Position numbers and translations under genes: made by a program. The notes under the pieces were generated by a model that saw nothing but the letters and a program-made list of their open reading frames with translations, was not told the DNA's origin and ran no database searches. DNA of 64,000 nucleotides, taken from the NCBI RefSeq assembly GCF_038024105.1, contig NZ_CP150661.1, positions 186,001 to 250,000 on the forward strand. Direction: 5' to 3'. Below are positions 1,867-33,389 of this stretch, in pieces; the stretch's first letter is position 1; each line of letters begins with the position of its first letter. This DNA comes from Polaribacter butkevichii (GTDB lineage Bacteria > Bacteroidota > Bacteroidia > Flavobacteriales > Flavobacteriaceae).

Positions 1867-1912
1867 ACAGTACAGAACAGGATGGGTTAGAGCAAATGTA
1901 TTTATAAATTTA
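1867..1912 (+). promoter_or_regulatory. Direct-repeat operator plus -7 box upstream of the GntR gene
   Basis: The 20-bp element at 1867-1886 (ACAGTACAGA ACAGGATGGG) is followed after 18 bp by TAAATTTA at 1905-1912. It is one of nine copies in the window with identical geometry. A second, weaker copy (AACAGAACAGAATGGG, 1920-1935) overlaps the ATG of the regulator itself, which hints at autoregulation. Confidence 0.75.
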
Positions 1913-1930
1913 CAAACGTAACAGAACAGA

Positions 1931-2932
1931 ATGGGCAGTAATAAAATTTCTTTAATAATAAAACATCAAGGAGATATTCCTAAATATCAACAATTAGTAA
2001 ATGCAATTAATGATGCTATAGCCAAAAATCTTTTAAAGAAAGGAGAAGTTTTGCTTTCTGTTAATGCTGCCTGTAAATTATATAATTTATCTAGAGATAC
2101 CGTATTTAAAGCATATACAATTTTAAAAGATAATGGTGTTGTAGACTCAGTACCAAATAAAGGATATTATGTTGCAAATGATACTAAAAAGGTATTGCTT
2201 TTATTAGATACATTTAAAGCTTATAAAGAAGTTTTATATCATTCGTTTGTAAATAACCTACCCAACAATGTAATTACCGATGTACAATTTCATCATTATA
2301 ATATAGATAATTTTAAAACTATTTTAAATAGTTCTAAAGGTAAATATTATAAATACGTTGTAATGACTTTTGATCATGGTGATGTACCTGCTGTACTGTC
2401 AGATATAGAAGATGAAAAATTGTTACTAATAGATTGGAATGTACATTCTAACAGTAACAATAACTATGTGTTTCAAGACTTTGGAAAAGCTTTTTTTGAT
2501 GCCTTAAAAAGTGCAGAAAATGTATTTAGAAAATATAAAGAAATTGTTTTTTTATATCCAACCTATACCTATCACTCCATAGAAACCATTACTTATTTTA
2601 AAAAATATTGCGAATTATTTCAGTTCAATTATATAGTGGTAACAGAACCTAGTTTGTTTAAAGTAGAAGAAGGGGTGGCTTATATAAGCACAAGTGATAG
2701 AATGTTGGGTATTTTTCTAGAACAATGTAGAGCTAAAGATTTAGAACCAGGAGTAAATGTTGGTTTTCTATCTTACAATGAAACGCCTATGAAAAAATTT
2801 ATTTATAAAGGAATTTCAGTAATTTCAACCGACTTTAAAGAATTAGGTACCAAAGCAGCGGAATTTGTTATGCAAGAAAAACCAATGCAATATTATGTTC
2901 CAACTAAATTAACATTAAGAGAATCATTATAA
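1931..2932 (+). CDS. GntR-family regulator with a sugar-binding-type C-terminal domain
   Basis: The 333-residue protein has an N-terminal winged helix-turn-helix of the GntR type (about 12-85): KYQQLVNAINDAI, then LSVNAACKLYNLSRDTVFKAYTIL and the wing NGVVDSVPNKGYYV. The C-terminal part (about 88-333) resembles the periplasmic-binding/LacI effector fold (VLLLLDTF, IVFLYPT, GVNVGFLSYNETPM, GISVISTDFKELG) rather than the usual FCD or UTRA domain. Xylulokinase begins 3 bp after its stop, so it is probably a pentose-responsive regulator in one operon with xylB. Its promoter carries the direct-repeat element found before eight other transcription units, making it one candidate for the protein that binds that element. 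The effector and sign of regulation are unknown. Confidence 0.85.
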   Translation: MGSNKISLIIKHQGDIPKYQQLVNAINDAIAKNLLKKGEVLLSVNAACKLYNLSRDTVFKAYTILKDNGVVDSVPNKGYYVANDTKKVLLLLDTFKAYKEVLYHSFVNNLPNNVITDVQFHHYNIDNFKTILNSSKGKYYKYVVMTFDHGDVPAVLSDIEDEKLLLIDWNVHSNSNNNYVFQDFGKAFFDALKSAENVFRKYKEIVFLYPTYTYHSIETITYFKKYCELFQFNYIVVTEPSLFKVEEGVAYISTSDRMLGIFLEQCRAKDLEPGVNVGFLSYNETPMKKFIYKGISVISTDFKELGTKAAEFVMQEKPMQYYVPTKLTLRESL

Positions 2933-2935
2933 ATT

Positions 2936-4420
2936 ATGTATTACTTAGGATTAGATATAGGAAGTTCTTCTATAAAAGCAGCATTAGTAGAAATAGCAAC
3001 AGGAAAAAGTTTAGGAGTTGTACAAGAACCCAAAGAAGAAATGGGGATGTTTGCTCAGAAAAATGGTTGGGCAGAACAAAAACCAAACGATTGGTGGTTG
3101 CATATTTGCAACGCAATTACCAAGCTAAAAAAAGAATATAATATAAGCAGAACCCAAATAAAAGGGATTGGTATTGCATACCAAATGCACGGTTTGGTTA
3201 TCGTAGATAAACAAGGAAATCCACTACGAAAAAGTATTATTTGGTGCGATAGTAGAGCCGTAGAAATTGGTCATAAAGCTTTTGCAGAAATTGGCGAAGA
3301 AAAATGTGCTTCGCATTTGTTAAACTCACCCGCAAATTTTACCGCATCAAAATTAAAATGGGTACAAGAAAATGAACCAGACATCTACAGTCAGATTTTC
3401 AAATTTATGTTGCCAGGAGATTATGTGGCGTATAAATTCTCAAATAAAATAAATACCACAATTTCTGGTTTATCAGAAGGTATCTTTTGGGATTTTAAAG
3501 AAAACACTGTTGCCGATTTTTTATTAGAATACTATGGAATCGATAAAAATTTGGTACCAGATATTGTAGACACTTTTGGCGTTCAATCTTTGGTAGATGA
3601 AAAAGGAGAAGCAGAAAGCGGAATTGCAGCCGGAACACCCATTTTCTACAGAGCAGGAGATCAACCCAATAACGCACTATCATTAAACGTTTTTAACCCT
3701 GGCGAAGTAGCTGCCACAGGCGGTACATCTGGAGTTGTGTATGCTGTAACCGATAATTTATCGGGTAAAGAAAGTACCCGAGTTAACAATTTTGCACACG
3801 TAAATTATGCTACAGAAAATAAAAGAATTGGTAAATTATTAAACATCAACGGAGCCGGAATTCAGTACCGATGGTTGTTAAATAACTTAGCCGTAGATTC
3901 TTATGAAGAGATGAATAACTTGGCATCAGAAATTCCTGTAGGATCAGATGGTGTTTGCTTAATTCCTTTTGGTAACGGAGCAGAACGCATGCTAAATAAC
4001 AAAGAAATTGGAACACGAATTGTAAACATGAACCTAAATAACCATCACAAAGGGCACATGTGTAGAGCCGCATTAGAGGGCATTGCATTCTCATTTGTAT
4101 ACGGAATGGAAATCATGAAATCAGACGGCATAAAGCCAAGTGTTATTAGAGCAGGAAACGACAATTTATTCCGTTCAGAAATATTTGCAAATACCGTAGC
4201 AACCTTAATAGAGCAAGAAATAGAAATCTACAATACCACGGGTGCCATTGGTGCCGCACGAGCAGCAAATTTACACAAAGGAGATTTTGAAGCTTTTGGA
4301 AAAGCAATTATGGACAACGATCATGTAATGACTTTTATGCCTTTTAAAGATCAAAAACCGTATTTAGAAGCCTATAACAACTGGAAAAAAGAACTAGAAC
4401 TCGTTTTAAAAAATCAATAA
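2936..4420 (+). CDS. xylB: Xylulokinase
   Basis: This 494-residue FGGY-family kinase phosphorylates D-xylulose to xylulose-5-phosphate. The N-terminal ATPase fold begins GLDIGSSSIKAALVE. The sugar-binding region includes YQMHGLV and WCDSRA. YRAGDQPNNALS carries the likely catalytic base Asp242, and GGTSGVVYAV is a nucleotide-binding motif. Length is normal for XylB. It follows the GntR gene by 3 bp and precedes xylose isomerase, which supports the xylulose specificity over other FGGY sugars. Confidence 0.93.
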   Translation: MYYLGLDIGSSSIKAALVEIATGKSLGVVQEPKEEMGMFAQKNGWAEQKPNDWWLHICNAITKLKKEYNISRTQIKGIGIAYQMHGLVIVDKQGNPLRKSIIWCDSRAVEIGHKAFAEIGEEKCASHLLNSPANFTASKLKWVQENEPDIYSQIFKFMLPGDYVAYKFSNKINTTISGLSEGIFWDFKENTVADFLLEYYGIDKNLVPDIVDTFGVQSLVDEKGEAESGIAAGTPIFYRAGDQPNNALSLNVFNPGEVAATGGTSGVVYAVTDNLSGKESTRVNNFAHVNYATENKRIGKLLNINGAGIQYRWLLNNLAVDSYEEMNNLASEIPVGSDGVCLIPFGNGAERMLNNKEIGTRIVNMNLNNHHKGHMCRAALEGIAFSFVYGMEIMKSDGIKPSVIRAGNDNLFRSEIFANTVATLIEQEIEIYNTTGAIGAARAANLHKGDFEAFGKAIMDNDHVMTFMPFKDQKPYLEAYNNWKKELELVLKNQ

Positions 4421-4432
4421 AAAAAAGAATGT

Positions 4433-4530
4433 TTAGGGCGTTCCCTAAAAAGGTCGGGCTTTACGCACTCGCTTTTTTTACTTAAAAAAGTAAAAAAGAG
4501 CTCAAACAGATGCTTCAATCCCTAACGCAA
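4433..4530. repeat. Flavobacterial interspersed repeat-like element
   Basis: The xylB-xylA gap carries TTAGGGCGTTCCCTAA, then GGTCGGGCTTTACGC, an internal hairpin (GCTTTTTTTACTT / AAGTAAAAAAGAGC, about 4470-4502), and finally CAATCCCTAACGC. The end (CCCTAACGC) is roughly the reverse complement of the start. From memory this GGGCGTTCCC...GGTCGGGCT...CCCTAACGC layout recurs in many Flavobacteriaceae genomes as a short repeat. It is much richer in GC than the surroundings. No second copy occurs in this window, so the repeat assignment rests on recognition only. Confidence 0.5.
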
Positions 4531-4581
4531 CATCGCATAGTAAAATAATCAAACAAATAAACAATTAAATAATATTTAAAA

Positions 4582-5898
4582 ATGGCAAATAAAGAATATT
4601 TTAAAGGAATCGAAAAAATTCAATTCGAAGGAAAAGAGTCAGACAATCCAATGGCTTTTAAATACTACAACCCAGATCAGGTAGTAGCAGGAAAAACAAT
4701 GCGTGAGCATTTTAAATTTGCTATTGCATATTGGCATACATTCTGCGGACAAGGAGGAGATCCTTTTGGACCAGGAACACAAAATTTTGCTTGGGATCAA
4801 TCATCAGACCCTATTCAAGCAGCAAAAGACAAAGCAGATGCTGCTTTTGAATTTATTAACAAAATGGGATTCGATTATTTCTGTTTTCATGATTACGATT
4901 TAGTACAAGAAGGCGCAACCTTTGCAGAATCAGAAGCAAGATTAAACACCATTACAGATTACATCAAAGGAAAACAAGCAGAAAGTGGTGTAAAATTATT
5001 ATGGGGAACAGCCAACTGTTTTTCTAATCCACGTTATATGAATGGAGCTTCTACAAACCCAGATTTTAATGTAGTTGCCAGAGCAGGAGGTCAAGTAAAA
5101 TTGGCTTTAGACGCTACCATTAAATTAGGTGGAGAGAATTATGTTTTTTGGGGAGGTAGAGAAGGTTACATGTCTTTATTAAACACAGACATGGGACGCG
5201 AATTAGACCACATGGGACAGTTTTTAACCATGGCAAGAGATTATGCAAGAGCACAAGGTTTTAAAGGAACTTTCTTTATAGAACCAAAACCAATGGAGCC
5301 AATGAAACATCAATACGATTTTGATTCAGCTACAGCTATTGGATTCTTAAAAGAATACGGTTTAGACAAAGATTTTAAAATGAACATTGAGGTAAACCAC
5401 GCAACCTTGGCACAACACACAATGCAACACGAATTAGCAGTTGCAGCCAAAGCAGGCATGTTAGGAAGTATCGATGCAAACAGAGGAGATTACCAAAATG
5501 GTTGGGATACAGACCAGTTTCCAAACAACATACAAGAAACAACAGAAGCCATGTTAGTTTTCTTAGAAGCAGGAGGATTACAAGGAGGTGGAGTTAATTT
5601 TGATGCAAAAATCAGAAGAAACTCAACAGATATGGAAGATGTTTTTCACGCACATATTGGAGGAGCAGATACCTTTGCAAGAGCATTATTGACTGCAGAT
5701 AAAATTATGACATCTTCTGCTTACAATTCTTTAAGAACACAAAGATATAGTTCTTTTGATGCAGGAAAAGGAAAAGACTTTGAAGCAGGTAAATTACAAC
5801 TTTCAGACTTGTATAAAATAGCTCAAGAAAATGGAGAATTAAGTTTGCAAAGTGGTAAACAAGAATTGTTTGAAAACATCATCAATCAATATATTTAA
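4582..5898 (+). CDS. xylA: Xylose isomerase
   Basis: The 438-residue protein is a full-length group II xylose isomerase converting D-xylose to D-xylulose. [11 protein letters not shown] carries the catalytic His103 and Asp106. [15 protein letters not shown] and [17 protein letters not shown] contain the metal-binding and catalytic Glu/Lys residues, and [16 protein letters not shown] and GSIDANRGD complete the two-metal site. It lies between xylB and the sugar transporter. A hairpin with a T-run follows the stop, only 37 bp before the transporter start. Confidence 0.97.
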
Positions 5899-5904
5899 TA
5901 ATAT

Positions 5905-5942
5905 AAGGCCTTTTAGAAGTAATATTCTAAAAGGTCTTTTTT
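5905..5942 (+). terminator. Hairpin with T-run between xylA and the transporter
   Basis: GGCCTTTTAGAA pairs with TTCTAAAAGGTC around a short loop and is followed by TTTTTT. Only 36 bp separate it from the next ATG, leaving little room for a separate promoter, so it may be a partial terminator or an mRNA 3'-end stabiliser inside the operon. Confidence 0.75.
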
Positions 5943-5978
5943 ATAACATTTCAATAGCAATTAACTAAATACATATTT

Positions 5979-7403
5979 ATGGCAAAATCAACAAATTCAG
6001 GATATCTTTTAAAACTTACTTTAGTAGCAACTTTAGGAGGTTTATTATTTGGGTATGACACAGGTGTAATTTCAGGAACCGTAGGTTCTTTAGATAGTTT
6101 TTTTGTCATCCCCAAAGGATTGTCAGAAACAGCAGCAAGTGCTTTTAAAGGCTTTTTAGTATCCAGTGCTTTAATTGGGTGTATTATTGGAGGAATCTTT
6201 GGAGGGGTAGTAAGTAAAAAATTAGGTAGAAAAAAAGGATTAATTTTAGCTGCAATTTTATTTTTAATATCAGCTTTAGGTTCTGCAATGCCAGAAATGT
6301 TTATTGGTACTTTAGGTGAGTTAGATCATACATACTCAACCATATTTATTGTGTATAGAATTATTGGAGGTATTGGAGTTGGTTTAGCATCTATGTTATC
6401 ACCTCTTTATATTGCAGAAATTGCACCAGCAAAAAGTAGAGGTAAGTTGGTTTCTTTTAATCAGTTGGCTATCGTTGGTGGTTTTATGGTAGTTTATTTT
6501 GTAAACTATTTTATATCTAGAAGCGGTGGTTCAGACGATTGGTTAAATGAAATTGGCTGGAGATGGATGTTTGCATCAGAAGTTATTCCTGCAGGATTAT
6601 TTTTGGGACTTTTATTTTTTGTTCCAGATACACCAAGATCTTTAGTATTAAGAAACAAACCAACAGAGGCTTTAGATGTTTTAATAAAAGTAAATGGTAA
6701 AGAAGAGGGAGATAGAGTTTTTGCAGAAATACAAGACTCTATGAATGATAAAACATCAGGAAACTTGTTGTCTTTTGGATGGTTGGTAATTATTATAGGT
6801 GTGGTATTATCTATTTTTCAGCAATTTGTTGGTATTAATGTTGTTTTGTACTACGCTCCAGAAATATTTAAAACCATTTCATCTGGTACAGATAGTGCCT
6901 TGTTAATGACTATTATTGTAGGTGTTGTAAACTTCTTATTTACCATTATTGCTGTAAAAACAGTAGATAAATATGGTAGAAAGCCATTAATGATTATTGG
7001 AGCTTTAGGTATGGCTGTAGCCATGTTATCTTTAGGTTTTGTCTTTTATGTTGGATCTACAGGGTATTTAGCACTGTTTTGTATGATGTTGTACGTTGCA
7101 AGTTTTGCAATGAGTTGGGGACCTGTAACTTGGGTGTTATTAGCAGAAATTTTTCCTAATAAAATTAGAGGAAAAGCATTAGCAATAGCAGTTGCAGCGC
7201 AATGGATTTCTAACTACTTAGTTTCTTTAACGTTTCCGATGATGAATGATAATTCTTATCTAACATCGCTTTTTAATCACGGATTTGCATATTGGGTTTA
7301 TGGTATTATGAGCATTTTAGCAATGTTATTTATCTTAAAATTCATACCTGAAACTAAAGGTAAAACTTTAGAAGAAATGGAAGGTCTTTGGAAAAAAAAA
7401 TAA
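5979..7403 (+). CDS. xylE: MFS sugar:H+ symporter, probable D-xylose transporter
   Basis: The 474-residue protein belongs to the major facilitator sugar porter family with about 12 predicted membrane segments. Visible signatures are FGYDTGVISGT in helix 1, GRKKGL after helix 2, RIIGGIGVGLASMLSPLYIAEIAP, PDTPRSLV after helix 6, QQFVGINVVLYYAP in helix 7, DKYGRKP and the C-terminal PETKGKTLEEME. It would import free pentose across the inner membrane. XylE-type specificity is inferred from the position between xylA and transketolase; glucose, galactose or arabinose symporters look similar. Confidence 0.87.
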   Translation: MAKSTNSGYLLKLTLVATLGGLLFGYDTGVISGTVGSLDSFFVIPKGLSETAASAFKGFLVSSALIGCIIGGIFGGVVSKKLGRKKGLILAAILFLISALGSAMPEMFIGTLGELDHTYSTIFIVYRIIGGIGVGLASMLSPLYIAEIAPAKSRGKLVSFNQLAIVGGFMVVYFVNYFISRSGGSDDWLNEIGWRWMFASEVIPAGLFLGLLFFVPDTPRSLVLRNKPTEALDVLIKVNGKEEGDRVFAEIQDSMNDKTSGNLLSFGWLVIIIGVVLSIFQQFVGINVVLYYAPEIFKTISSGTDSALLMTIIVGVVNFLFTIIAVKTVDKYGRKPLMIIGALGMAVAMLSLGFVFYVGSTGYLALFCMMLYVASFAMSWGPVTWVLLAEIFPNKIRGKALAIAVAAQWISNYLVSLTFPMMNDNSYLTSLFNHGFAYWVYGIMSILAMLFILKFIPETKGKTLEEMEGLWKKK

Positions 7404-7430
7404 TAAAAAAATCAATTTAGAATAATTATT

Positions 7431-7470
7431 AAACCCAATTGATTTCAATATTTTCAATTGGGTTTATTTA
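7431..7470 (+). terminator. Hairpin between transporter and transketolase
   Basis: AAACCCAATTGA (7431-7442) pairs with TCAATTGGGTTT (7454-7465), followed by a short T-rich tail. The transketolase ATG is only about 14 bp further on, so transcription must pass through it. It probably tunes expression within the operon. Confidence 0.65.
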
Positions 7471-7483
7471 CAAATAAGTAATA

Positions 7484-9520
7484 ATGAACAAGAAAATAGA
7501 CCAACAAGCGGCTGATAATATTAGAGCTTTAGCAGTTGCAATGGTAGAAAAAGCAAACTCTGGGCATCCTGGAGGACCTATGGGAGGTGCAGATTTTATG
7601 CACATCTTATATTCAGAATTTTTTAATTTCGATCCTTCAGATATGACTTGGGCATTTAGAGATCGTTTTTTTATGGATGCAGGGCATTTATCAACTTTAA
7701 TGTATGCGCAATACTACCTTTTAGGGAATTACAAGAAAGAAGATGTTGCAAACTTTAGACAATGGGGTTCAATTACTCCTGGGCATCCAGAAGTTGATGT
7801 TGCAAGAGGTATCGAAAATACATCAGGGCCTTTAGGACAAGGGCATACCATGGGAGTTGGTGCAGCAATTGCTGCAAAATTTTTACAAGCTCGTTTTGGT
7901 AACTGGATGGATCATAAAATTTATGGTTTTATTTCTGATGGAGGGGTTCAAGAAGAAATCTCACAAGGAGCAGGAAGAATTGCAGGTCATTTAGGATTGA
8001 ACAATTTTATTATGTTCTACGATTCTAATGACATTCAATTATCTACGCCAACGGATGAAGTTACTACCGAAGATACAGCCATGAAGTACCAAGCTTGGGG
8101 CTGGAAAGTAGTTACTATTGATGGTCACAACCATGATGAAATTAGAAAAGCACTAAAAGATGCGAATGCCGAAACGGAAAAGCCAACCTTAATTATTGGT
8201 AAAACCATTATGGGTAAAGGTTGTGTAACATCCGAAGGAAAAACTTTTGAAGGTGAATGTGAGTTACACGGACAACCTATTGGAGCGTCAGGAGCAGATT
8301 ATACTAAAACCTTATTAAATTTAGGAGCAAATCCTGAAGCGCCTTTTGATATTTATGATGATGTAAGTGAATTTTATCAGAATTTATTAGAGCGAAAAAT
8401 AGCACAAGCAAGAGATAAAAAAGTAGATATTTCTATTTGGAGAGAAGCGAATCCTGAATTAGCAACAAAATTAGATTTCTTTTTATCAGGAGAATTACCA
8501 ACCTTAGATTTTGAAGGTATAGCACATAAAGAAGGTTTGGCTACAAGAGCAGCTTCCTCTGGAGTATTAGCATATTTGGCTGAAAATGTAGAAAATATGA
8601 TTGTTTCTTCTGCAGATTTATCAAATTCTGATAAAACAGATGGGTTCTTAAAGAAAACACATGCGCTTAAAAAAGGAGATTTTAGCGGATCCTTCTTACA
8701 AGCAGGTGTTGCAGAATTAACCATGTCTTGTATAGCAAACGGAATTGCGTTACACGGAGGAATCATTCCTGTGGTGGCAACATTTTTTGTGTTTTCAGAT
8801 TATATGAAACCAGCGATTCGTTTAAGCGGAATTCAAGAATTGGGTGTAAAATATGTGTGGACACATGATGCTTTTAGAGTTGGAGAAGATGGGCCAACAC
8901 ATCAACCAGTAGAACAAGAAGCACAAATTCGTTTGTTAGAAAAATTGAAAAACCACAGTGGAAATCCAAGTTTCTTGGCTTTACGTCCTGCAGATTCTGC
9001 AGAAACCAGTGTGGCTTGGAAAATGGCTTTAGAAAATAAAAATACACCAACAGGATTAATTTTATCAAGACAAGGCATTAAAGATTTACCAGCTACTAAA
9101 TCCTCAAGATATCAAGAAGCATTAGCCGCTGAAAAAGGTGGTTACTTGGTAAAAGAAGTAGAAAATCCTGATGTAGTTTTAATAGCAAACGGATCTGAAG
9201 TAGCAACATTAGTAGCTGCAGCAGCAATTTTAGAAGCAGAAAACGGATTGAAAGTAAATATTGCTTCGGTAATTTCTGAAGGAGTTTTTAGGTTACAATC
9301 TAAAGAATATCAGCAAAGTGTAATTCCTAAAAACAAACCATTATTTGGTTTAACAGCAGGTTTACCAGTAAATTTAGAAGGTTTAGTTGGTGATGCAGGA
9401 AAAGTGTTTGGTTTAGATCATTTTGGGTATTCTGCACCTGCAAACATCTTAGATGATAAATTTGGTTTTACAGGAGAAAAAGTAAGCAAAGAAGTATTAG
9501 CATATTTAAAAACAGTATAA
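7484..9520 (+). CDS. tkt: Transketolase
   Basis: The 678-residue protein is a full-length thiamine-diphosphate transketolase of the non-oxidative pentose phosphate pathway. The N-terminal domain shows [35 protein letters not shown] and [22 protein letters not shown] with [13 protein letters not shown]. The pyrimidine-binding domain contains [14 protein letters not shown], and the region around [15 protein letters not shown] is conserved. It converts xylulose-5-phosphate made by XylAB into glycolytic intermediates. Transaldolase follows 10 bp downstream. A housekeeping copy probably exists elsewhere, so this one looks dedicated to the PUL. Confidence 0.96.
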
Positions 9521-9530
9521 AATTAGAAGT

Positions 9531-10184
9531 ATGAAATTTTTTATAGATACAGCAAATTTAAATGATATTGCAGAAGCAGAAGCTTTAGGAGTTTTAGATG
9601 GAGTAACCACCAATCCATCTTTGATGGCAAAAGAGGGGATTACGGGAGCAGAAAATATTTTAAATCATTATAAAAAGATTTGTGATATTGTAGCAGGAGA
9701 TGTTTCTGCAGAAGTAATTGCCACAGATTATGATGGAATGATTGAACAAGGAACAGAATTGGCAGCCTTACATCCACAAATTGTGGTAAAATTACCAATG
9801 ATTGCAGACGGAGTAAAAGCATGTAAATACTTTTCTGATAAAGGAATTAAAACCAATGTAACTTTAGTTTTTTCTGCAGGACAAGCGTTGTTAGCGGCAA
9901 AAGCAGGTGCCACTTATGTTTCTCCGTTTTTAGGAAGATTAGATGATATTTCTACGGATGGATTGCATTTGATTAAAGAAATTAGACAAATTTATGATAA
10001 CTACGGATTTAAAACTCAAATTTTAGCAGCATCTGTACGTAATACCATGCATGTTATTAATTGTGCAAAATTAGGTTCTGATGTAATGACAGGACCATTG
10101 TCTTCAATTACAGGTTTATTAAAGCATCCATTAACAGATAGTGGTTTGGCAAAGTTTTTAGAAGATTATAAAAAGGGGAATTAA
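9531..10184 (+). CDS. tal: Transaldolase, short TalC/fructose-6-phosphate aldolase type
   Basis: The 217-residue protein is the short transaldolase type. [31 protein letters not shown] is the N-terminal signature, the Schiff-base lysine is Lys87 in IVVKLPM, and [32 protein letters not shown] and [12 protein letters not shown] follow. With transketolase it completes the non-oxidative pentose phosphate branch. Fructose-6-phosphate aldolase activity is a possible alternative, but linkage to transketolase favours transaldolase. A terminator follows, ending the pentose operon. Confidence 0.93.
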
Positions 10185-10211
10185 TGCTGTGAGTATTGTT
10201 ATGAAGAAGGA

Positions 10212-10247
10212 AAAAAGGTAAATTCTATGTAGAGTTTACCTTTTTTT
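10212..10247 (+). terminator. Intrinsic terminator after transaldolase
   Basis: GGTAAATTCT (10217-10226) pairs with AGAGTTTACC (10231-10240) and is followed by seven T residues. It closes the pentose-metabolism operon. Confidence 0.85.
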
Positions 10248-10642
10248 ATTTAAAAAATAAGTTCCACTTTTATCAAAATAAAAAACAAGGATAAAATGTG
10301 GAGATTTGCTTATAATTAAAAATTAAATTTCACAAATATTATATTTAGGAAAAAATTAAGTTTAAATTTAAGAACTAATTTAGATAAAATAACGAGGTGT
10401 AAGTTTTCTCTAATTCTTATAAAATAAAAATAAAAAGAAATACCGATATTTTTATTAGAAAAAAAGTTATAAAATTTATTAACCTTAATTATAAGTTCAA
10501 TATTTTTTCGAGTTTACGGTTCTTTTTCAAAACCCATTTTTAAAGAAACTTATCTCTTTATAACTATTATGGTAAAAATTATATGTTTTTTTTAAATAAT
10601 TAGAAATATTATCCTCATTAATAGAGGTCTTTTTTAAAAAAA
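10248..10642. other. AT-rich intergenic stretch before susC
   Basis: No ORF, RNA gene or repeat was recognised here. A short weak hairpin (CCTC ... GAGG followed by TTTTTT, about 10611-10636) lies just before the susC promoter element. The region may hold a long upstream regulatory sequence, but nothing specific can be supported. Confidence 0.5.
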
Positions 10643-10688
10643 ACAGTACAGTGCAGGATGCAGTTTGTTCATCAAAATTATTTATTTG
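10643..10688 (+). promoter_or_regulatory. Direct-repeat operator plus -7 box upstream of susC
   Basis: The element ACAGTACAGT GCAGGATGCA at 10643-10662 is followed after 18 bp by TTTATTTG at 10681-10688, one mismatch from TAnnTTTG. The susC start is 65 bp past the -7 box. No separate TTTG -33 element is needed because the operator occupies that position. Confidence 0.72.
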
Positions 10689-10752
10689 TATAGATAAATA
10701 TAGATGTGTATTGTCATCTAATTTAAAAACTAAATATTAACATTTAAACATA

Positions 10753-13700: not shown

Positions 13701-13890
13701 TTTAGATAAAGTAGATATTTTTAAGTCGCTTTCTATGAGTGTTGTAGCAAACAACTTATTAACTTTTACAAATTATACTGGTTATAATCCAGAATTAGGA
13801 AACGGTGGTAATAATATTTCTGCAGGTTTAGATAATTTAAGATACCCAAATAAAACTAGTATAATTTTTAGCTTAACTGCTCAGTTTTAA
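10753..13890 (+). CDS. SusC-like TonB-dependent outer-membrane oligosaccharide transporter
   Basis: The 1045-residue protein imports glycan oligomers across the outer membrane with SusD. After a signal peptide ending near VKAQ (about 38) come a carboxypeptidase-regulatory-like domain (about 40-112; TVTGTVIANNGDPVPGVSV), a TonB box region (LDEIVVIGYGTANKRD, about 119-134), a plug domain (GGLQGRVSGVQI, YVVDGQQVDDIDNINPNDIES, LEVLKDGASAAIYGSRSANG) and a beta-barrel. Possible internal starts are Met5 and Met14; the first ATG is kept. SusD starts 30 bp later. This is the only SusC in the window, so it is likely to serve both halves of the locus unless another pair lies outside. Confidence 0.96.
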   Translation: MLSNMKKKIKTRSMKLSKSCFFFTFLFLMVCNLSVKAQQRTVTGTVIANNGDPVPGVSVMQKGTKNGTATDFDGNYSIKLLGSGSKVLVFASLGFKDKEVAIGNRTKINITIEESSEQLDEIVVIGYGTANKRDVLGSMASVKTEVLNESVPVDALGGLQGRVSGVQILTNGAPGSSSEIVIRGISTLNSGTGPLYVVDGQQVDDIDNINPNDIESLEVLKDGASAAIYGSRSANGVVLVTTKKGKVGLPTVKVSVVNSLSYLKNKVPVSNTVQRNKFIELRQTGNTNASGGTVDSLGIRTQFVVDLQELIKQVGQKTQANVAFSGGSENAKYYWNTGFLDEEGIIIGSNFRRINTNLNLSFDITKKLSAGTRLTATYQNQDGIPEGTVFRELSYRQTDVLVYDYDGSFIRERFARNNPIARAVLGRQDNRQYRASSFNWFNYQFTPEFSFKTTIGVNFRLQKLNEFRPSQTVDAVSGKINGRERQRLSYDIQSENFFNYSKKFKGGHKFTGLVGFSVQKWHQENSDLRAIEFNNDYLETFNNVKEFNLTNTGTTAFEHSLVSLYSRLTYDYKRKYLIGATLRRDASSRFGENKRWGDFPSVSAGWRISNEKFIKDLDLEFLQEFKLRASYAITGNERIGNYLTQALYGPGNFYDGVSGFAPFQLGNADLGWEETAQQNYGVDLNLFGRRLKISVDHYIKTTTDLLYARPIPEETGFSSITANIGSIENKGFDVEISGTPLKTADFEWYSGFNVSYNKNKILKLADPDGHIINGSAFSYKLEVGQPIGSMYGFKNLGVYQYDESNAYTESGTRLTANFDENDNFVNYLLNGQEYNGTVKQQTFNNVVLKGGDVIWQDQNGDLNIDQENDRTIIGNGLAEFVGGWSNTFSYKNLSLSVLLNYSFGQQIYRGYDHTRNKANNSVYTPGPDRIEDAWLNQGDITRYPSLEVARAQNRTGLDSDYVSNADYIRLQNVRLSYKFSKEVLDKVDIFKSLSMSVVANNLLTFTNYTGYNPELGNGGNNISAGLDNLRYPNKTSIIFSLTAQF

Positions 13891-15429: not shown

Positions 15430-15442
15430 AATTATAATAAAG

Positions 15443-18022: not shown

Positions 18023-18068
18023 TCAGGATAGAGCAGGACGGAATTAGTGAATCTTGGACGTAATTTTA
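18023..18068 (+). promoter_or_regulatory. Direct-repeat operator plus -7 box upstream of the GH39-like gene
   Basis: TCAGGATAGA GCAGGACGGA at 18023-18042, then 18 bp, then TAATTTTA at 18061-18068. The next ATG (18096) is 28 bp downstream. The element begins immediately after the preceding terminator. Confidence 0.75.
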
Positions 18069-22034: not shown

Positions 22035-22040
22035 TATTTT

Positions 22041-23348: not shown

Positions 23349-23377
23349 AAGAGTCTTTAAAAAATATTTAATTTTTT

Positions 23378-23430
23378 AACATTCAATATAAAATTGGCAA
23401 AATTGTCTTTTTATATTGAATGTTTTTATT
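23378..23430 (+). terminator. Intrinsic terminator after the GH43-like gene
   Basis: ACATTCAATATAAA (23379-23392) pairs with TTTATATTGAATGT (23410-23423), followed by a T-rich tail. It ends the GH39-GH5-GH43 unit and isolates the downstream non-coding region. Confidence 0.8.
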
Positions 23431-23524
23431 TTTATAAATATTTTAATTATGAATAAAATTTAAAGCTTATTATTGTAAATACAGAAAGTTTAAATCTAGT
23501 TACTTACATACTTAATTTTATTAT

Positions 23525-23570
23525 ACAGGATAGAGCAGGATAAGTAATGCTTCTTGTTACGGTATGTTTG
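23525..23570 (+). promoter_or_regulatory. Orphan direct-repeat operator plus -7 box (no downstream ORF), copy 1
   Basis: ACAGGATAGA GCAGGATAAG at 23525-23544, then 18 bp, then TATGTTTG at 23563-23570, a perfect TAnnTTTG box. No start codon with a usable frame follows before the terminator at 23616. The geometry is identical to the copies that serve protein genes. Confidence 0.72.
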
Positions 23571-23573
23571 TAA

Positions 23574-23655
23574 TGTAGTTTTTTAAAAAGAATTAATTTT
23601 GAATTAGTATTTATTAAACACGTTTCTTTTAATTAAAAGAAACGTGTTTTTTTTT
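23574..23655 (+). ncRNA. Candidate small RNA 1 (regulon promoter to terminator)
   Basis: The start is estimated a few bases after the -7 box and the end is the T-run of a strong hairpin: AAACACGTTTCTTTT (23616-23630), loop AATT, AAAAGAAACGTGTTT (23635-23649), then T residues. The product would be about 80 nt with a 15-bp terminal stem. There is no ORF in it. The evidence is the precise regulon-type promoter and terminator pair; RNA expression is not shown. It could instead be what remains after loss of a gene. Confidence 0.5.
23616..23655 (+). terminator. Strong intrinsic terminator in the non-coding region, 1
   Basis: A perfect 15-bp stem with a 4-base loop is followed by a run of T residues. 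Its position 45 bp past a regulon-type -7 box is unusual. Confidence 0.9.
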
Positions 23656-23812
23656 AGTTTAAATTTCAACTAAAAAAAGCTTTACTTTTTTATAAAAATA
23701 GAAATAGTAGCAAGTAAGTTGTTGATTATAAGAAGTCTTTGAACTTGATTTATATAATAGGTTTTACTAAAATAAAAAAAGGTGTAAATAATATAATTTT
23801 TAACAATATAAA
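23656..23812. other. AT-rich spacer
   Basis: No ORF or structured element was recognised between the first candidate small RNA and the second orphan promoter. Confidence 0.4.
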
Positions 23813-23858
23813 TCAGGTGAGCACAGGACAGACATCTTTCTTTCATAAAGTAGTTTTG
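23813..23858 (+). promoter_or_regulatory. Orphan direct-repeat operator plus -7 box (no downstream ORF), copy 2
   Basis: TCAGGTGAGC ACAGGACAGA at 23813-23832, then 18 bp, then TAGTTTTG at 23851-23858, a perfect TAnnTTTG box. The first half-site is the weakest of the nine, but the invariant positions (CAG, A, CAGGA) and the spacing are kept. No ORF follows. Confidence 0.68.
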
Positions 23859-23861
23859 AAG

Positions 23862-23938
23862 CGTAAGGTTATTTAACTTTATTGAATTAATTTACAAGTT
23901 CCCTTTGTCTCCCCCAAGACAAAGGGACTTATTTTTTA
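23862..23938 (+). ncRNA. Candidate small RNA 2 (regulon promoter to terminator)
   Basis: The RNA would run from just past the -7 box to the T-run after the hairpin AAGT-CCCTTTGTCT / AGACAAAGGG-ACTT (23896-23930), giving about 75 nt. The loop is C-rich (CCCCC), an unusual accessible single-stranded stretch in such AT-rich DNA. No start codon with a usable frame is present. Expression and function are unproven. Confidence 0.5.
23896..23938 (+). terminator. Strong intrinsic terminator in the non-coding region, 2
   Basis: A 14-bp stem with one bulged T and a CCCCCA loop is followed by ATTTTTT. It ends candidate small RNA 2. Confidence 0.85.
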
Positions 23939-24028
23939 TAATGCTACCCCCTAATACTTAAGCTTAAAAGAACCTATCTTAAAAAATATGTTTTGGTTTA
24001 TCTTTAACATTTTCTTACTTATTGTTTA

Positions 24029-24084
24029 GCAGGGTATTGCAGTATAGGGCAGGATGGTGTAATTTTCTTTTTTTCTTATATTTA
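24029..24084 (+). promoter_or_regulatory. Triple direct-repeat operator plus -7 box upstream of the clan-A GH
   Basis: Three consecutive 10-bp units are visible: GCAGGGTATT (24029-24038), GCAGTATAGG and GCAGGATGGT (24039-24058). After 18 bp comes TATATTTA at 24077-24084, 69 bp before the ATG at 24153. This is the only copy with a clear third upstream unit, which supports 10 bp as the true repeat period. Confidence 0.75.
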
Positions 24085-24152
24085 TTAATTATAACATCTT
24101 CTTCTTTATTTTTAATTTCGATGAAATAAGAATAGGTAATAAAACTAAAAAT

Positions 24153-27122: not shown

Positions 27123-27247
27123 GTAATTACGATTCTTTTCTTATAGGGTAAAACTATATGGCTCATCATTAAGATGGGTCATATTTTTTACGTTAAAACT
27201 GTAAAACACATCAAAATTAACTTAAATATATGTTATTTTACCAAAAA

Positions 27248-27293
27248 ACAGCATAGCGCAGGATGGTTAGTACGTTTTAAGCCATTAATTTGT
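27248..27293 (+). promoter_or_regulatory. Direct-repeat operator plus -7 box upstream of the T9SS surface protein
   Basis: ACAGCATAGC GCAGGATGGT at 27248-27267, then 18 bp, then TAATTTGT at 27286-27293 (a shifted variant of TAnnTTTG). The ATG at 27326 is 33 bp downstream. Confidence 0.7.
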
Positions 27294-27325
27294 AGCCAAT
27301 TAACAATTAAATTAAAACAAACATT

Positions 27326-29059
27326 ATGAAAAAATTATTACTTACATCTTGCTTTTTAGCTTCTTTAAGTATTTCCGCTCAACGAGTTTTTACTAGTACA
27401 GGTTCTGGAGATTGGAGTACACCCGCTACTTGGACAATTACAGACCCAAATGCTAATGGAGGGGTAAACACCGTGCCTTCTAATATTGATGATGTTTTTG
27501 TAAGTACGAGTCATACTGTAGATGTTTCTTCTGGTAACGATGCGGTATGTAACAACCTAACAACAGGTGGTTCTAGTGGAGGGGTAGATTTAAGAGATGG
27601 TTCTACTTTAACTGTAGAAGGAGATGTATCTTTAGGCAGATTTGACAATAGTCTTAGACTTTTTCACGGTACAGGTGCGCCTCCAACTCTTATAATTAAA
27701 GGAACAATAACAGATAGAAGAATTTATTTAAGAAAAGTATTATCTAACAATAAGTGGTTTTTAATTTCTAGTCCTTTCTTAAATGCTAAAAAATCTAAAT
27801 TTCTTACAGGTTCAACAAATACAGTTACAAATAGTGTAGCTAATGGTTTTACAGGAGATGGATCTAAAACTTCTTTTGCAAGTTATGATGATGCAAATGC
27901 TTCTGGTTCTAAATATGTTTATACTTTAGAAGCAAGTAAAACATCTGGTAATTTAACAGATGCAGCAGGTTATTCTATATTATTAGATAATTCACCTAGT
28001 AACGCTTCTTATACTATGAATGGTAAATATCATCATGGTGCAACAACATCTGTTGCTATTTCAGATGCAGGTAATGGATATAATTTAGTAGGTAATCCAT
28101 ACCTGGCTTATATATATGCAAATGATGCAGCTAATGCAACTCACAATGTATTATTAGATAATAATTCAATTTTAGATGAAGCTACTATATGGCTATGGGA
28201 TGGAGATAATGCAACATGGGTAACAGTTAATAAATCAGATGCAGCAGCATATCACATAAGTCCAACACAAGGGTTTTTTGTAAAAGCTAAAACTGGCGGA
28301 GGTGCTTTTACTTTTGATAAAGACTTAGAAACTCATGCTACAAACGGAGATGTTTTCTTAAAAACTACAAATAATAGATTTGAAATTGATTTAACTATTT
28401 CTACAGATAAATTAAGTCGTAAAACAGCTATTAGATATATAGATAATACAACCACTTCTTTTGATAATGGTTATGATAGCTCTGTATTTGGAGGGTATTC
28501 AGAAGATTTTCAAGTATACACTCAATTATTAGAGAGTACAACTAAAAACTTAGCAATACAATCATTACCAACCAAAGGTTTAGAAACTATGGTAGTTCCT
28601 GTAGGAGTTAAAGCACCTGCAAATTCAGAAATCACTTTTTCGGCAAAATCTTTAAACGTACCAGCTGGTTATAATGTGTATTTAGAAGATAAAACAAATA
28701 ATATTCTTACAAGATTAGATGAAGCAAATGCAGCGTATACAACAACAGTAACTAGTGCTATAACCGAAGGACGTTTTTTTATACACACTAGTGCTTTTTC
28801 TGTTTTAAGTTTAGAATCAGAATTATTAGAGGGCGTAAGTATTTTTAAGACAGATAATTCTAATTTAAGAATAGTTGGTTTACAACAAGGAAAAGTATCA
28901 GTATCATTAGTTAATTTAATAGGTAAAACAGTAATGAATTCTTCTTTTAAAGCGTCTACTGTAAATAATATTGCATTACCAAAATTAGCTACAGGTGTTT
29001 ATATTGTTCAGTTAGAAACTGAAGCTGGTAAATTGAATAAGAAAATAATTTTAGAATAA
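27326..29059 (+). CDS. T9SS-exported surface protein of unknown function
   Basis: The 577-residue protein has a signal peptide ending near SISAQ (about 19). The N-terminal region (FTSTGSGDWSTPATWTI, DDVFVSTSHTVDVSSGNDAVCNNLT, about 20-105) resembles the beta-rich start found in many Bacteroidetes surface proteins. A long Ser/Thr/Asn-rich middle includes GNGYNLVGNPYLAYI, and the C-terminus is a T9SS sorting domain (VSIFKTDNSNLRIVG, NLIGKTVMNSS, LATGVYIVQLETEAGKLNKKIILE). No catalytic motif was recognised. It has its own regulon-type promoter and is followed 27 bp later by a 55-codon gene, so the pair probably works together. A glycan-binding or adhesion role is inferred. Confidence 0.75.
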   Translation: MKKLLLTSCFLASLSISAQRVFTSTGSGDWSTPATWTITDPNANGGVNTVPSNIDDVFVSTSHTVDVSSGNDAVCNNLTTGGSSGGVDLRDGSTLTVEGDVSLGRFDNSLRLFHGTGAPPTLIIKGTITDRRIYLRKVLSNNKWFLISSPFLNAKKSKFLTGSTNTVTNSVANGFTGDGSKTSFASYDDANASGSKYVYTLEASKTSGNLTDAAGYSILLDNSPSNASYTMNGKYHHGATTSVAISDAGNGYNLVGNPYLAYIYANDAANATHNVLLDNNSILDEATIWLWDGDNATWVTVNKSDAAAYHISPTQGFFVKAKTGGGAFTFDKDLETHATNGDVFLKTTNNRFEIDLTISTDKLSRKTAIRYIDNTTTSFDNGYDSSVFGGYSEDFQVYTQLLESTTKNLAIQSLPTKGLETMVVPVGVKAPANSEITFSAKSLNVPAGYNVYLEDKTNNILTRLDEANAAYTTTVTSAITEGRFFIHTSAFSVLSLESELLEGVSIFKTDNSNLRIVGLQQGKVSVSLVNLIGKTVMNSSFKASTVNNIALPKLATGVYIVQLETEAGKLNKKIILE

Positions 29060-29086
29060 TTAACGAGAATTTAAAAAATATAAAAG

Positions 29087-29254
29087 ATGAAACAACAAAA
29101 AACAGATATAGAAAATATTTCTCGAAAAGAAGCTATAAAAAAGATTGGTAATTACGGTAAATATGCTGCCTTAACGGCATTAGGAACTTATATGATATTA
29201 AACCCACAAAAAGCACAAGCGCAAAGTATAGAAGCGCCAGGATCTGGGTTTTAA
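29087..29254 (+). CDS. Small exported or membrane-anchored protein, 55 residues
   Basis: This ORF runs ATG 29087 to TAA 29252-29254. The polar N-terminus (MKQQKTDIENISRKEAIKKIG) is followed by a moderately hydrophobic stretch (KYAALTALGTYMILN) and a possible signal cleavage region (PQKAQAQS), ending in EAPGSGF. The SRKEAIKKIG start resembles a degenerate twin-arginine-like leader. Similar short proteins are remembered next to T9SS proteins in flavobacteria, but no function is known. It is 27 bp after the surface protein, in the same direction, and a strong terminator follows, which supports it as a real gene. Confidence 0.7.
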   Translation: MKQQKTDIENISRKEAIKKIGNYGKYAALTALGTYMILNPQKAQAQSIEAPGSGF

Positions 29255-29290
29255 TTAAAAGAAACCAATTTTTATAAAAACTAATTATTA

Positions 29291-29325
29291 AAAAGGTAGT
29301 AAATTAATTTACTACCTTTTTTTTT
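29291..29325 (+). terminator. Intrinsic terminator after the 55-residue gene
   Basis: GGTAGTAAATT pairs with AATTTACTACC with almost no loop and is followed by nine T residues. Confidence 0.88.
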
Positions 29326-29609
29326 GTTAACAAATTTCATTAAGAATAAGTAAATTGTTATGGCGTTTTAAATTAGTAATATGTGTGTTGTTACTATTAA
29401 GAATTTGTTTTATAATGGCCTTTATTTACCCAGCAATTGTACTTTTATCTGAGGTATATTAGTTAAAGTTAGTAGCATTAGCCTTTTTTAGATATTATTT
29501 ATGAAAAAGAAAACAATAACAATTATTAATTTGTAAAGAAACAATGGCTTTATAATTAGAGATATGCGTGCTTTAATAATACTTATGAGCTTAGTAAAAG
29601 TATTGTTTT
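29326..29609. other. AT-rich intergenic stretch
   Basis: No ORF, RNA gene or repeat was recognised between the terminator and the next regulon promoter. Confidence 0.45.
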
Positions 29610-29655
29610 TCAGGATAGAACAGGATACGATTTTACCATAACTAATTTACTTTTA
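29610..29655 (+). promoter_or_regulatory. Direct-repeat operator plus -7 box upstream of the sulfatase-GH78 fusion
   Basis: TCAGGATAGA ACAGGATACG at 29610-29629 shows the 10-bp repeat most plainly (CAGGATA-GAA CAGGATA). After 18 bp comes TACTTTTA at 29648-29655, 79 bp before the ATG at 29734. Confidence 0.75.
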
Positions 29656-29733
29656 AATCTTTAAAAAGTGTAATTAAATTCACTGTTATTATTAGATTAA
29701 AATAGAAATATAATATTAATAAAGTAACATTTT

Positions 29734-32700
29734 ATGATGCAAAAACAAAGGTTTTTATTAGTACTAGTATTGGCTTTAACTATGTTTAAGCCAATTTATT
29801 CTCAACAAAATAAAGATAATCCAGAAAAACCAAATATCATATTTATTTTAACGGATGATCAGCGTTTTGATGCTATTGGGTACGTAGGTAATAGCTATGT
29901 AAAAACTCCAGAAATGGACAAACTAGCAAAATCGGGTACTTATTTTAAGAATGCCATTGTAACCACACCTATTTGTGCGGCAAGTAGAGCAAGTCTTTTA
30001 ACAGGTTTGCATGAAAGAACTCATAATTTTAATTTTCAAACAGGAAATATTAGAAGTGAGTATATGGATAATTCGTATCCAACGATCTTAAAAAATGCAG
30101 GATATCATACTGGTTTTTTTGGTAAATATGGAGTTAGATATGAAGAGTTAGACAAACAATTTGATGTTTATGAATCTTATGATAGAAACCATAGATACAA
30201 AGATAAAAGAAGTTACTTTTATAAAACAATTGGTAAAGATACCGTTCACTTAACAAGATATACAGGGCAGCAAGCTTTAGATTTTATAGATGATTCTTCT
30301 AAAGAAAAACCTTTCTGTTTATCATTAAGTTTTAGTGCGCCACATGCACACGATAGTGCGCCAGACCAATACTTTTGGCAAGATGCTACAGACAATCTAT
30401 TAACAGATGTTACCATACCTAAAGCAGATCTTTCTGAGGATAAGTATTTTAATGCACAACCAGAAATTGTTAGAAAAGGCTTTAACAGATTACGTTGGAC
30501 TTGGAGATATGACACGCCAGAAAAATATCAGCATAGTTTAAAAGGATATTATAGAATGATTGCGGGTGTAGATTTAGAAATTGCAAAAATCCGTAAAAAA
30601 CTAAAAGAAAAAGGATTAGATAAAAATACTGTTATTATTGTAATGGGAGATAACGGTTACTTTTTAGGAGAACGTCAAATGGCAGGAAAATGGTTAATGT
30701 ATGACAACTCAATAAGAGTTCCATTAATGATTTTTGATCCTAGAGTAAACAAACATCAAGACATCAATGAAATGGTTTTAAATATTGATGTTACTTCTAC
30801 AATTGCAGATTTTGCAGGTGTAAAAATACCTGAAACTTGGCAAGGGAAAAGTTTAAAACCTTTAGTTTTAAAAGATGTAAATACCATTGCTAGAGATACT
30901 ATTTTAATAGAACATATTTGGGATTTTAGCGAAATACCACCAAGTGAAGGAGTGCGTACAGAAGAATGGAAATACTTTAGATATGTAAATGATAAATCTT
31001 TAGAAGAGTTATACAATCTTAAAAAAGATCCAAAAGAAATAAAAAACCTTGTTGGTAAAAGAAAATATGCTAAAGTTTTAGCCGAATTAAGAGCAAAAAC
31101 AGATGAGCTTATTAAAAGAAATAGCGATAAATATAGAGCAGCGCCAACAGATTTAACAGTAGAGTTAATAAGAAAACCAGGTACAGATGTTCAAATTTTT
31201 GATACCAAACCAGAATTTGGTTGGACGGTTCCTTTAGCGTCTAAATTTCAATCTGCATACCAAATATTAGTATCTTCTAATCTAGAAAGTATTAATAATA
31301 ATAACGGAGATGTTTGGGATAGTGGTCAAGTAAGATCAGATGCATCTTCAAATGTAGAATTTAAAGGAAACCCTTTAGAGGTTGGAAAAACATATTTTTG
31401 GAAAGTAAGAATTTGGGATGAAGATAATAGATTGGTAGATTATTCTGAGGCTCAAAAATTTACTACAGGTAAAAGTGATAGTTATATTATTTCTACAGAA
31501 AATAAATTTCAGGTTGATAAAATTAAACCTGTAAAATTTGAAAAAAGAAATAATTTCTATTTTATGGATTTTGGTAAAGCAGCTTTTGCAACCATCAATT
31601 TTACATATAATGCAACAACCCCACACACATTAACCTTTAGAGTTGGTGAAATGGTTGATGATAACGGAAATGTTAATAGAACTCCACCAAAGAAAAGTAA
31701 TATTCGTTATCAAGAAATAAAAATTGATGTAAAACCAGGTCAAACAAACTATCAAATAAAAGTACATACAGACGAAAGAAATACAAGGCCAAATAAAGCA
31801 ATTGCTTTACCAAAAGGATTTCCTCCTTTAGTGCCGTTTAGATATGCAGAAGTAGAAGGAGCACAAGCACCAATTTTTGCAGATAACTTTACACAATTGG
31901 CTTACCATACTTATTGGGATGAAAAAGCAAGTAGTTTTAAAAGTGATAATGATATCTTAAACCAAGTTTGGGATTTATCTAAATACTCTATAAAAGCAAC
32001 TACTTTTAATGGGTTGTATGTAGACGGAGATAGAGAAAGAATACCTTATGAGGCAGATGCTTATTTAAATCAATTAAGCCATTATACTACAGATAGAGAG
32101 TATGCAATGGCAAGACGTACTATAGAGTATTTTATGAAAAATCCAACATGGCCAACAGAATGGCAACAACATGTTGCATTGCTTATTTATGCAGATTATA
32201 TGTATACAGGAAATACAGAGCTTATAGAACGTTATTATGAAGAGCTAAAACATAAAACTTTGTTCGAATTATCTAATGAGGATGGATTAATAACATCAAC
32301 AAAAGTAGATAAAGAATTTATGCGTAAATTAGGTTTTGCAGATGGATATAAAAAACCATTAACAGATATTGTAGATTGGCCATCAGCTAATTTTAATGGA
32401 AGTAAAACCAAAGGAGAACGAGATGGTTTTGTATTTAAGCCATACAGTACAGTAATTAATGCTTTCTTTTATGAAAACATGAAAATTATGTCTGAATTTG
32501 CTAAAATTTTAGGAAAAACGCAAGAAGTTTTAGATTTTGAATTAAGAGCAGCAAAAGCAAAAAAGGCTGTTAACGAACAAATGTTCGATAAAAAACGAGG
32601 TATTTATGTAGATGGTATTGGTACAGATCATGCCTCTTTACACGCAAATATGATGCCTTTAGCATTTGGGTTAGTCCCAGAAGAGCATTATAAATCGGTT

Positions 32701-33264
32701 GTAGATTATGTGAAATCTAGAGGAATGGCTTGTAGTGTTTACGGATCGCAATTTTTAATGGATGGCTTGTATAATGCAGGTGAAGCAGATTATGCTTTAG
32801 AATTATTAGCAAGTAAAGCTAAAAGAAGTTGGTATAATATGATTCGTATTGGATCTACCATTACTTTAGAAGCTTGGGATAATTCTTATAAAAATAATTT
32901 AGATTGGAACCATGCATGGGGAGCAGTACCAGCAAATGCAATACCTAGAGGTTTGTGGGGTATTAAACCTAAAACACCAGGTTTTGATGTAGCTACTATT
33001 AAGCCTCAAATGAGTAAACTTAAATCTAGCTCTATAGAAGTACCAACGGTTAGAGGTACAATAAAAGCATCTTATAAATATAACGGACCAAGATTGCAAA
33101 CTTATGAAATTGAAATTCCTGGTAACATGGTTGCTGAGTTTTCATTAAACAACTTAGAAGGAAAAGATTTTATCCATAATGGACAAAAAGTACCTTCTGC
33201 TTTTAAAGTTGTAAGATTAGCTCCTGGAAAACACACAATTCAATTAAAAATAAATTCATTTTAA
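29734..33264 (+). CDS. Bifunctional sulfatase-alpha-L-rhamnosidase fusion (S1 + GH78)
   Basis: The 1176-residue secreted protein starts with a signal peptide ending near IYSQ. An S1-type sulfatase domain (about 32-475) carries [16 protein letters not shown] and TTPICAASR with Cys81 as the formylglycine precursor. An Fn3-like linker domain follows (about 490-580; [28 protein letters not shown]), then a GH78 domain (about 590-1176) with [23 protein letters not shown] as the general-acid region, [24 protein letters not shown] as the base region, and [14 protein letters not shown]. It would remove sulfate from rhamnose-3-sulfate and then cleave the desulfated rhamnose. A similar S1-GH78 architecture is described, to my recollection, for the Formosa agariphila ulvan PUL. 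No C-terminal T9SS domain is visible. Confidence 0.92.
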
Positions 33265-33284
33265 TCAAAAATAAAATAGATTTT

Positions 33285-33319
33285 AAAGCCTCAACTTTTT
33301 TTAAGTTGAGGCTTTTTTT
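33285..33319 (+). terminator. Intrinsic terminator after the sulfatase-GH78 gene
   Basis: AAAGCCTCAACTT (33285-33297) pairs with AAGTTGAGGCTTT (33303-33315) followed by a T-run. Confidence 0.9.
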
Positions 33320-33343
33320 GTCTTAATAAGAATAAACAAGCAA

Positions 33344-33389
33344 TCAGGTTATAACAGGATGGTTTAAAAAAAACTTCAAATTATATTTA
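33344..33389 (+). promoter_or_regulatory. Direct-repeat operator plus -7 box upstream of the ulvan-lyase-like gene
   Basis: TCAGGTTATA ACAGGATGGT at 33344-33363, then 18 bp, then TATATTTA at 33382-33389, 62 bp before the ATG at 33451. The element begins 24 bp after the preceding terminator. Confidence 0.75.

Follow-up and report, generated by a model that had tools for sequence, protein, structure and literature searches.

A tandem 10-bp repeat fixed upstream of -7 boxes is the candidate operator of an AraR-like GntR regulator of rhamnose and ulvan genes in Polaribacter butkevichii

The window analyzed here, a 64,000-nucleotide stretch of the 4.08-Mb chromosome of Polaribacter butkevichii (186,001-250,000), contains an ulvan-type locus with GH88, rhamnose mutarotase, xylose catabolism, SusC/SusD and sulfatase genes, together with genes for rhamnosidases, ulvan lyase beta-trefoil domains, a glucuronate isomerase and GH106. 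Nine copies of a 20-bp element, composed of two tandem 10-bp repeats, occur in the window at a fixed distance from a -7 promoter box, and the same arrangement extends outside it. We propose that these tandem decamers are bound by a GntR protein with a LacI-type sensor, encoded 92 kb beyond the window, which would serve as a class II-type activator of rhamnose and ulvan genes; taken as a whole, we consider this explanation probable though well short of certain. The sites, their spacing, their co-occurrence with this regulator, their adjacency to its gene and the distinct operators of its paralogs can all be read directly from the genome sequences.

An initial annotation of the window reported 20-mers with invariant CAG at positions 2-4, A at position 8 and CAGGA at positions 12-16, and all nine are present at the positions it gave. 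It also placed a TAnnTTTR-like octamer 38 bp after the start of every element, which holds in full for seven of the nine; the octamer matches at five of six positions at the 10643 site (TTTATTTG) and at four of six at the 27248 site (TAATTTGT), where a 5/6 box lies one base further upstream. The decamer is itself built from two related pentamers, and the element as a whole conforms to the consensus NCAGKAYAGN RCAGGAYRS. Its 10-bp period places it among direct repeats of 10-11 bp and apart from those with a spacing of ~21 bp.

In the complete genome the exact core CAGKAYAGNRCAGGAY, a strict form that fits six of the nine window sites, has 12 matches, all inside 172-344 kb, and the reversed pattern has none. 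When the element and the box are sought together at the fixed spacing, 13 perfect matches are recovered, 12 of them in 151-354 kb and the thirteenth at 3,095,321, within the apparent regulon of a paralogous GntR protein. With up to two mismatches permitted there are 78 matches versus 34 for the reversed control, and hence loose matches are largely noise. The nine-site matrix suggested in the initial annotation was run across 240 kb around the window, and it detected the same element upstream of many flanking genes: at scores of 14 or more it yielded 19 further intergenic registers, 14 of which have a box of at least 5/6 at exactly +38 (background rate 0.046 per intergenic position), as against none of the three intragenic matches at this threshold. 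Three of the five registers lacking a box are upstream registers of longer arrays (chromosome positions 210029, inside the window, 271260 and 343270), the other two being 271270 (4/6) and 308384 (3/6).

The candidate regulator belongs to a tandem pair of GntR genes on the minus strand (G000:C1 342069-343115 and 340931-341980), divergent from a rhamnose catabolic operon. The 342069 protein has an N-terminal GntR winged helix (PF00392, 1.4e-10, 41.1 bits versus a cut-off of 27) that also matches the DNA-binding domain of AraR (4egy, E 5.2e-7) and a C-terminal LacI/GalR-type effector domain, and its predicted structure shows the winged helix joined to a LacI-type sensor. Adjacent GntR gene pairs are also seen in G163, G132, G070, G044 and G153, all of them rich in sites. 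Among 249 sampled genomes of the family, the exact element is found in 47 of the 54 with a close homolog of this protein, as opposed to 3 of the 195 others, and pattern counts are high mainly where such a homolog occurs; the reversed pattern has matches in six of the 249. In G064, one of the three exceptions, the next-best homolog (41%) has a site 69 bp from its gene, with a poor box; the other two, G086 and G247, have one site each, inside a reading frame. A second sample, comprising 345 genomes from the phylum and partly overlapping the first, has the element in 12 of 14 family members with the homolog versus 0 of 24 without it, and in one genus in 9 of 9 versus 0 of 13.

G160, which has 13 one-mismatch matches without a GntR homolog at E <= 1e-40, was considered as a counter-example and rejected; as none of its matches is exact and they are scattered over three contigs, we take them as chance occurrences, and G103 and G018 were dismissed likewise. 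In the window's own genus, G131, G333 and G547 lack both a close GntR homolog (E <= 1e-70) and the exact element. Adjacency points in the same direction as co-occurrence: at 25 of 29 homolog loci, drawn from the 54 homolog genomes with this genome's own locus left out, a site with at most one mismatch lies within 1.5 kb of the gene, and all 30 sites at these 29 loci have a box of at least 5/6. The same test gave 1 of 19 loci for the GntR protein encoded in the window and none for the reversed pattern.

What speaks most strongly for GntR proteins as the binders is that the operators change with the protein. The window's own GntR protein (P0001, 1931-2932, plus strand) heads a xylose operon, followed by a kinase, xylose isomerase and XylE; XylA and XylE score above the NCBIfam cut-offs, and the kinase is closest to XylB, below the cut-off. 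Its gene is preceded by a different operator, AACGT-AACAG-AACAG-AATGG, at 1915-1934 on the plus strand, which overlaps its ATG and whose AACAG core is conserved among P0001 homologs. Homologs of this xylose type occur in 32 genomes, of which 20 loci (our own included) were read for the operator and 19 for adjacency: a motif of the form ACCAG-AACAG-AACAG-AAYGG is present right downstream of the -7 box in 20 of 20, with a box of at least 5/6 exactly 11 bp upstream in 15 of 20 as registered. Set out likewise in pentamers, the rhamnose-type operator has the form NCAG-KAYAG-NRCAG-GAYRS and follows the same plan. For the third group of paralogs, represented by 20 hand-picked loci (with some ranks skipped) and the copy of this genome, 16 of the 21 loci have a CTAGTAGG-type tandem decamer in the 150 bp upstream; among upstream regions in this genome the figure is 8 of 181. 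Around a further paralog at 3,067,931, 54% identical, a box stands at the fixed place for 5 of the 13 CAGGAY words counted at 3.064-3.100 Mb, versus 5 of 120 in control DNA totalling 320 kb, this stretch having been selected because the genome-wide search for element and box pointed there. G000:C1 3064000-3096000 is probably a second regulon, in which the 54% paralog would use variant elements.

These comparisons also bear on the window's GntR protein, which the initial annotation had listed as a candidate binder: the family was right and the copy was wrong, in that the exact element occurs in none of the 13 genomes that have its homolog and lack that of the 342069 protein, and together with its adjacency record this led us to reject it as the general binder. 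One of its homologs (L184 in G145) has a single in-frame stop codon. At 1867-1934 of the window the two operator types meet at one promoter, the rhamnose type upstream and the xylose type downstream of the -7 box, and it is possible that the xylose operon is under the combined control of both.

The spacing was examined over 129 sites, derived from 130 distinct exact sites at loci L011-L179 of 46 other genomes of the family; these loci comprise 80 places from the exact-match search and others from homolog and pattern searches, so that the totals are to be read as at least these numbers, and duplicates, sites near locus ends, one upstream register and all 10 loci belonging to G160, G103 and G018 were left out. 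A box lies at +37 from the CAG, i.e. +38 from the start of the 20-mer, in 109 of the 129, compared with 7 and 5 at the offsets one base to either side and at most 9 at every other offset from 16 to 74. The spacer columns carry little information, and it is therefore selection that holds the distance constant ahead of many different genes. The arrangement is a direct repeat rather than a palindrome: identity upon a 10-bp shift averages 6.9/10 versus a best dyad fraction of 0.56 over the 129 sites, whose core positions were already fixed by the search pattern, and the nine window sites give 6.1/10 and 0.54. In one genome (G184) six tandem decamers were counted by eye, with the last pair in register with the box; one of the 109 boxed sites (G184, L128) has its box by accident, since the array there continues downstream. 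Additional upstream decamers as a general feature were rejected, since they occur at 3 of 129 sites.

The overlap of the operator with the -33/-35 region at one offset from the promoter is the configuration of a class II activator, and the proposal of the initial annotation, a tandem-bound regulator that is fixed over -33 and resembles an activator more than it does a movable repressor, is borne out to this extent. Its supplementary argument, that no TTTG is needed at these promoters, had to be abandoned: no -33 motif is detectable in general promoters, with a TTG starting 20-24 nucleotides upstream of the box in 7 of 51 generic cases versus 4 of 116 element promoters and no clear generic peak, and the absence of a -33 motif is therefore no proof that an activator is needed.

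In the model that we favor, binding, activation and effector being deduced from sequence patterns, the element would be the operator of the 342069-type regulator, with two winged helices sitting side by side on the two tandem repeats. Judged from the box, the operator would lie ~33-52 bp upstream of the transcription start with its near repeat at the -33 position, so that the bound protein would in all likelihood touch the RNA polymerase carrying the primary sigma factor, which reads the TAnnTTTG -7 box, in the style of class II activation. The signal for its LacI-like sugar-sensing domain may be rhamnose or a derivative released from ulvan, as suggested by the target genes. The predicted regulon comprises rhamnose catabolism, lactate utilization and the outer-membrane uptake systems and enzymes of the ulvan locus, along with the gene of the regulator itself and, for this genome, the xylose operon.

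Several observations weigh against this model. Both of the best-known relatives are repressors: AusR, a GntR protein of Zobellia, represses alginate genes according to a second-hand account in PMC8286568, and the PDB entry of AraR names it as a repressor. The operator of the xylose-type paralog lies right after the -7 box, a repressor's place, and the element is non-palindromic, whereas GntR operators are typically palindromes, with the exceptions listed in PMC4494728. The cut-off separating the 54 homolog genomes from the remainder was chosen after a gap in E-values had been seen, and seven of the 54 lack the exact element, although at least four of these have a one-mismatch site near the gene. 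Outside the family, exact matches are present in 4 of the 15 genomes at order or class level that have a homolog (E <= 1e-70), in 4 of 32 that lack one, and in 20 of 260 more distant genomes versus 5 for the reversed control, so that stray matches are commoner than this control suggests. Of the 129 sites, 20 have no box at the fixed place: three of these lie inside long reading frames, three have a perfect box one base off and one, array-like, has its box 10 bp off, which leaves 13 without evident reason; furthermore, seven of the 109 boxed sites overlie a reading frame longer than 150 codons.

The points concerning AusR, AraR and the xylose-type operator, as well as the generally undetectable -33 motif, would fit the same GntR protein acting as a repressor, which would cover -33 and shut out the polymerase for as long as it is not displaced by rhamnose or a derivative. 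We regard this as rather unlikely and favor activation, because a movable roadblock needs no base-exact spacing, whereas 109 of 129 sites keep theirs ahead of many genes and across unconserved spacers. Co-occurrence and neighborhood by their nature cannot separate tightly linked genes, and the element might be bound by a different regulator that is always co-inherited with the GntR and rhamnose genes; the finding that three further GntR paralogs or groups have their own variants of the tandem repeat, near their genes or in a nearby regulon, makes this improbable. In particular, a DeoR-type binder was rejected, for the genome has two PF08220 matches, at 3.43 and 3.78 Mb, both more than 3 Mb away from the rhamnose locus.

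The initial annotation had itself favored an AraC-type or hybrid two-component regulator. Both are encoded nearby, the former at 42456-43331 of the window and the latter at G000:C1 157720-161790, and direct repeats are usual for such proteins (PMC3878776). We find this highly improbable: the motifs published for them have a spacing of ~21 bp, as described in parts of PMC3878776 and PMC3870299, and no element scoring 9.5 or more precedes the SusC/SusD pair adjoining the hybrid gene, for which this neighborhood was checked and co-occurrence was not searched. The AraC protein was rejected on its distribution, as its counterpart is found in 13 of 249 genomes and is missing from 38 of the 50 with the element; 12 of those 13 carry the element. 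Still less credible is a direct reading of the repeat, as an element of the -35 type, by an alternative sigma factor. The exact spacing to the -7 box would agree with it; against it, the box is of the primary sigma type, TAnnTTTG (in the relevant part of PMC7366714), tandem arrays of three to six decamers are no feature of sigma factors, and the variants of the element follow the GntR paralogs.

Within the window all nine elements are on the plus strand. That at 1867-1886, with the box TAAATTTA at 1905-1912, is upstream of the GntR/xylose operon (from 1931), and that at 10643-10662, with its box at 10681-10688, precedes a SusC/SusD-type pair. The element at 18023-18042 (box TAATTTTA at 18061-18068) is upstream of a GH39-like gene, whose true start is probably later than the mechanically assigned TTG (18054), since the latter precedes the box. 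Three elements fall in an 804-bp gap (23349-24152), which has no plus-strand reading frame of 25 codons or more: 23525-23544 (box TATGTTTG at 23563-23570), 23813-23832 (box TAGTTTTG at 23851-23858) and an array of three tandem decamers at 24029-24058, whose last two (24039-24058) constitute the annotated element, with the box TATATTTA at 24077-24084, upstream of a 989-aa protein with a CBM6/35 match. The gap, with its three element promoters, possibly encodes a long leader or a small RNA; Rfam searches of the window gave no match at gathering scores. Downstream, 27248-27267 with its imperfect box at 27286-27293 precedes a 577-aa protein with a secretion tail, 29610-29629 (box TACTTTTA at 29648-29655) a sulfatase/alpha-L-rhamnosidase fusion, and 33344-33363 (again TATATTTA, at 33382-33389) a gene with an ulvan lyase beta-trefoil domain. 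From 35905 to 64000 there is no intergenic element scoring 9.5 or more upstream of the later ulvan genes (36186, 38885, 43545), and thus another regulator may serve these.

Elsewhere on the chromosome, a site at 343,260 precedes the GntR pair. Another, at 343,442, is followed by genes for RhaEW, which scores above the cut-off of NCBIfam PRK08324.1-5, for a protein resembling rhamnose isomerase, whose score is below the cut-off, and for an FGGY kinase. A further site, at 354,020, lies upstream of a LutB-type lactate utilization gene and of one whose product has CCG cysteine-rich domains, a choice of targets that would fit lactate formed from rhamnose. In the other genomes of the family, 123 of the 129 sites have a reading frame close downstream, of which 38 lack a match to the proteins of this region; the best matches of the remainder are most often RhaEW (22), TonB-dependent receptors (12) and the sulfatase-rhamnosidase (9).

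A search of titles and abstract beginnings in the open-licence literature turned up no paper that we recognized as describing this element or its regulator. In Bacteroidota, polysaccharide loci are mostly regarded as being under the control of hybrid two-component, SusR-like and sigma/anti-sigma systems. For hybrid two-component control this is supported, in part, by PMC3878776. Regulons would become predictable from the DNA given a cytoplasmic monosaccharide sensor whose operator code can be read. Among the 235 genera of the family that were sampled, 50 have the exact element; in P. butkevichii it brings together genes for the use of rhamnose and lactate, for uptake, and for sulfatases, rhamnosidases and ulvan lyases, and it provides a substrate hint for orphan genes that carry it. 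It also offers a test of a GntR winged helix on tandem repeats at an activator's position. More broadly, we consider it evenly poised whether GntR regulators that have LacI-type sensors form a clade whose members bind head-to-tail on paralog-specific 10-bp tandem repeats, one branch of which has become a class II-type activator replacing -33 and drives a 200-kb ulvan super-locus by cytoplasmic sensing of rhamnose or a derivative, without the usual membrane sensors. Such a clade would belong to the Bacteroidota.

The domain plan of this regulator is known from the AraR subfamily: like AraR of Bacillus subtilis, as presented in part in PMC4494728, it combines a GntR winged helix with a LacI/GalR-type sensor and has a sugar regulon. 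Unlike the repressor AraR, it has its tandem decamer fixed over -33 and is probably activating. AraR operators are reportedly palindromic. The operator described here departs from the GntR palindrome, though several proteins of the family do bind direct repeats, namely NanR, FarR, NagQ and the MocR group (GabR, TauR, PdxR), as covered in part in PMC4494728; these differ in having other sensor domains and other repeat units. With the RhaR regulons it shares direct repeats of 10-11 bp and rhaEW in rhamnose loci, as in portions of PMC3870299; RhaR, however, belongs to the DeoR family, whose matches here are far from the locus. The rhamnose regulators described there include LacI, DeoR and AraC types, and the word GntR does not occur in the main text of that study. 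The Bacteroides hybrid two-component regulators likewise act on direct repeats at polysaccharide loci, with ~21-bp spacing and an AraC-type helix in the part of PMC3878776 that deals with them. Tandem OmpR/PhoB boxes are likewise made of 10-11-bp half-sites that replace the -35 box for an activator, which in their case belongs to an unrelated, phosphorylation-driven protein family.

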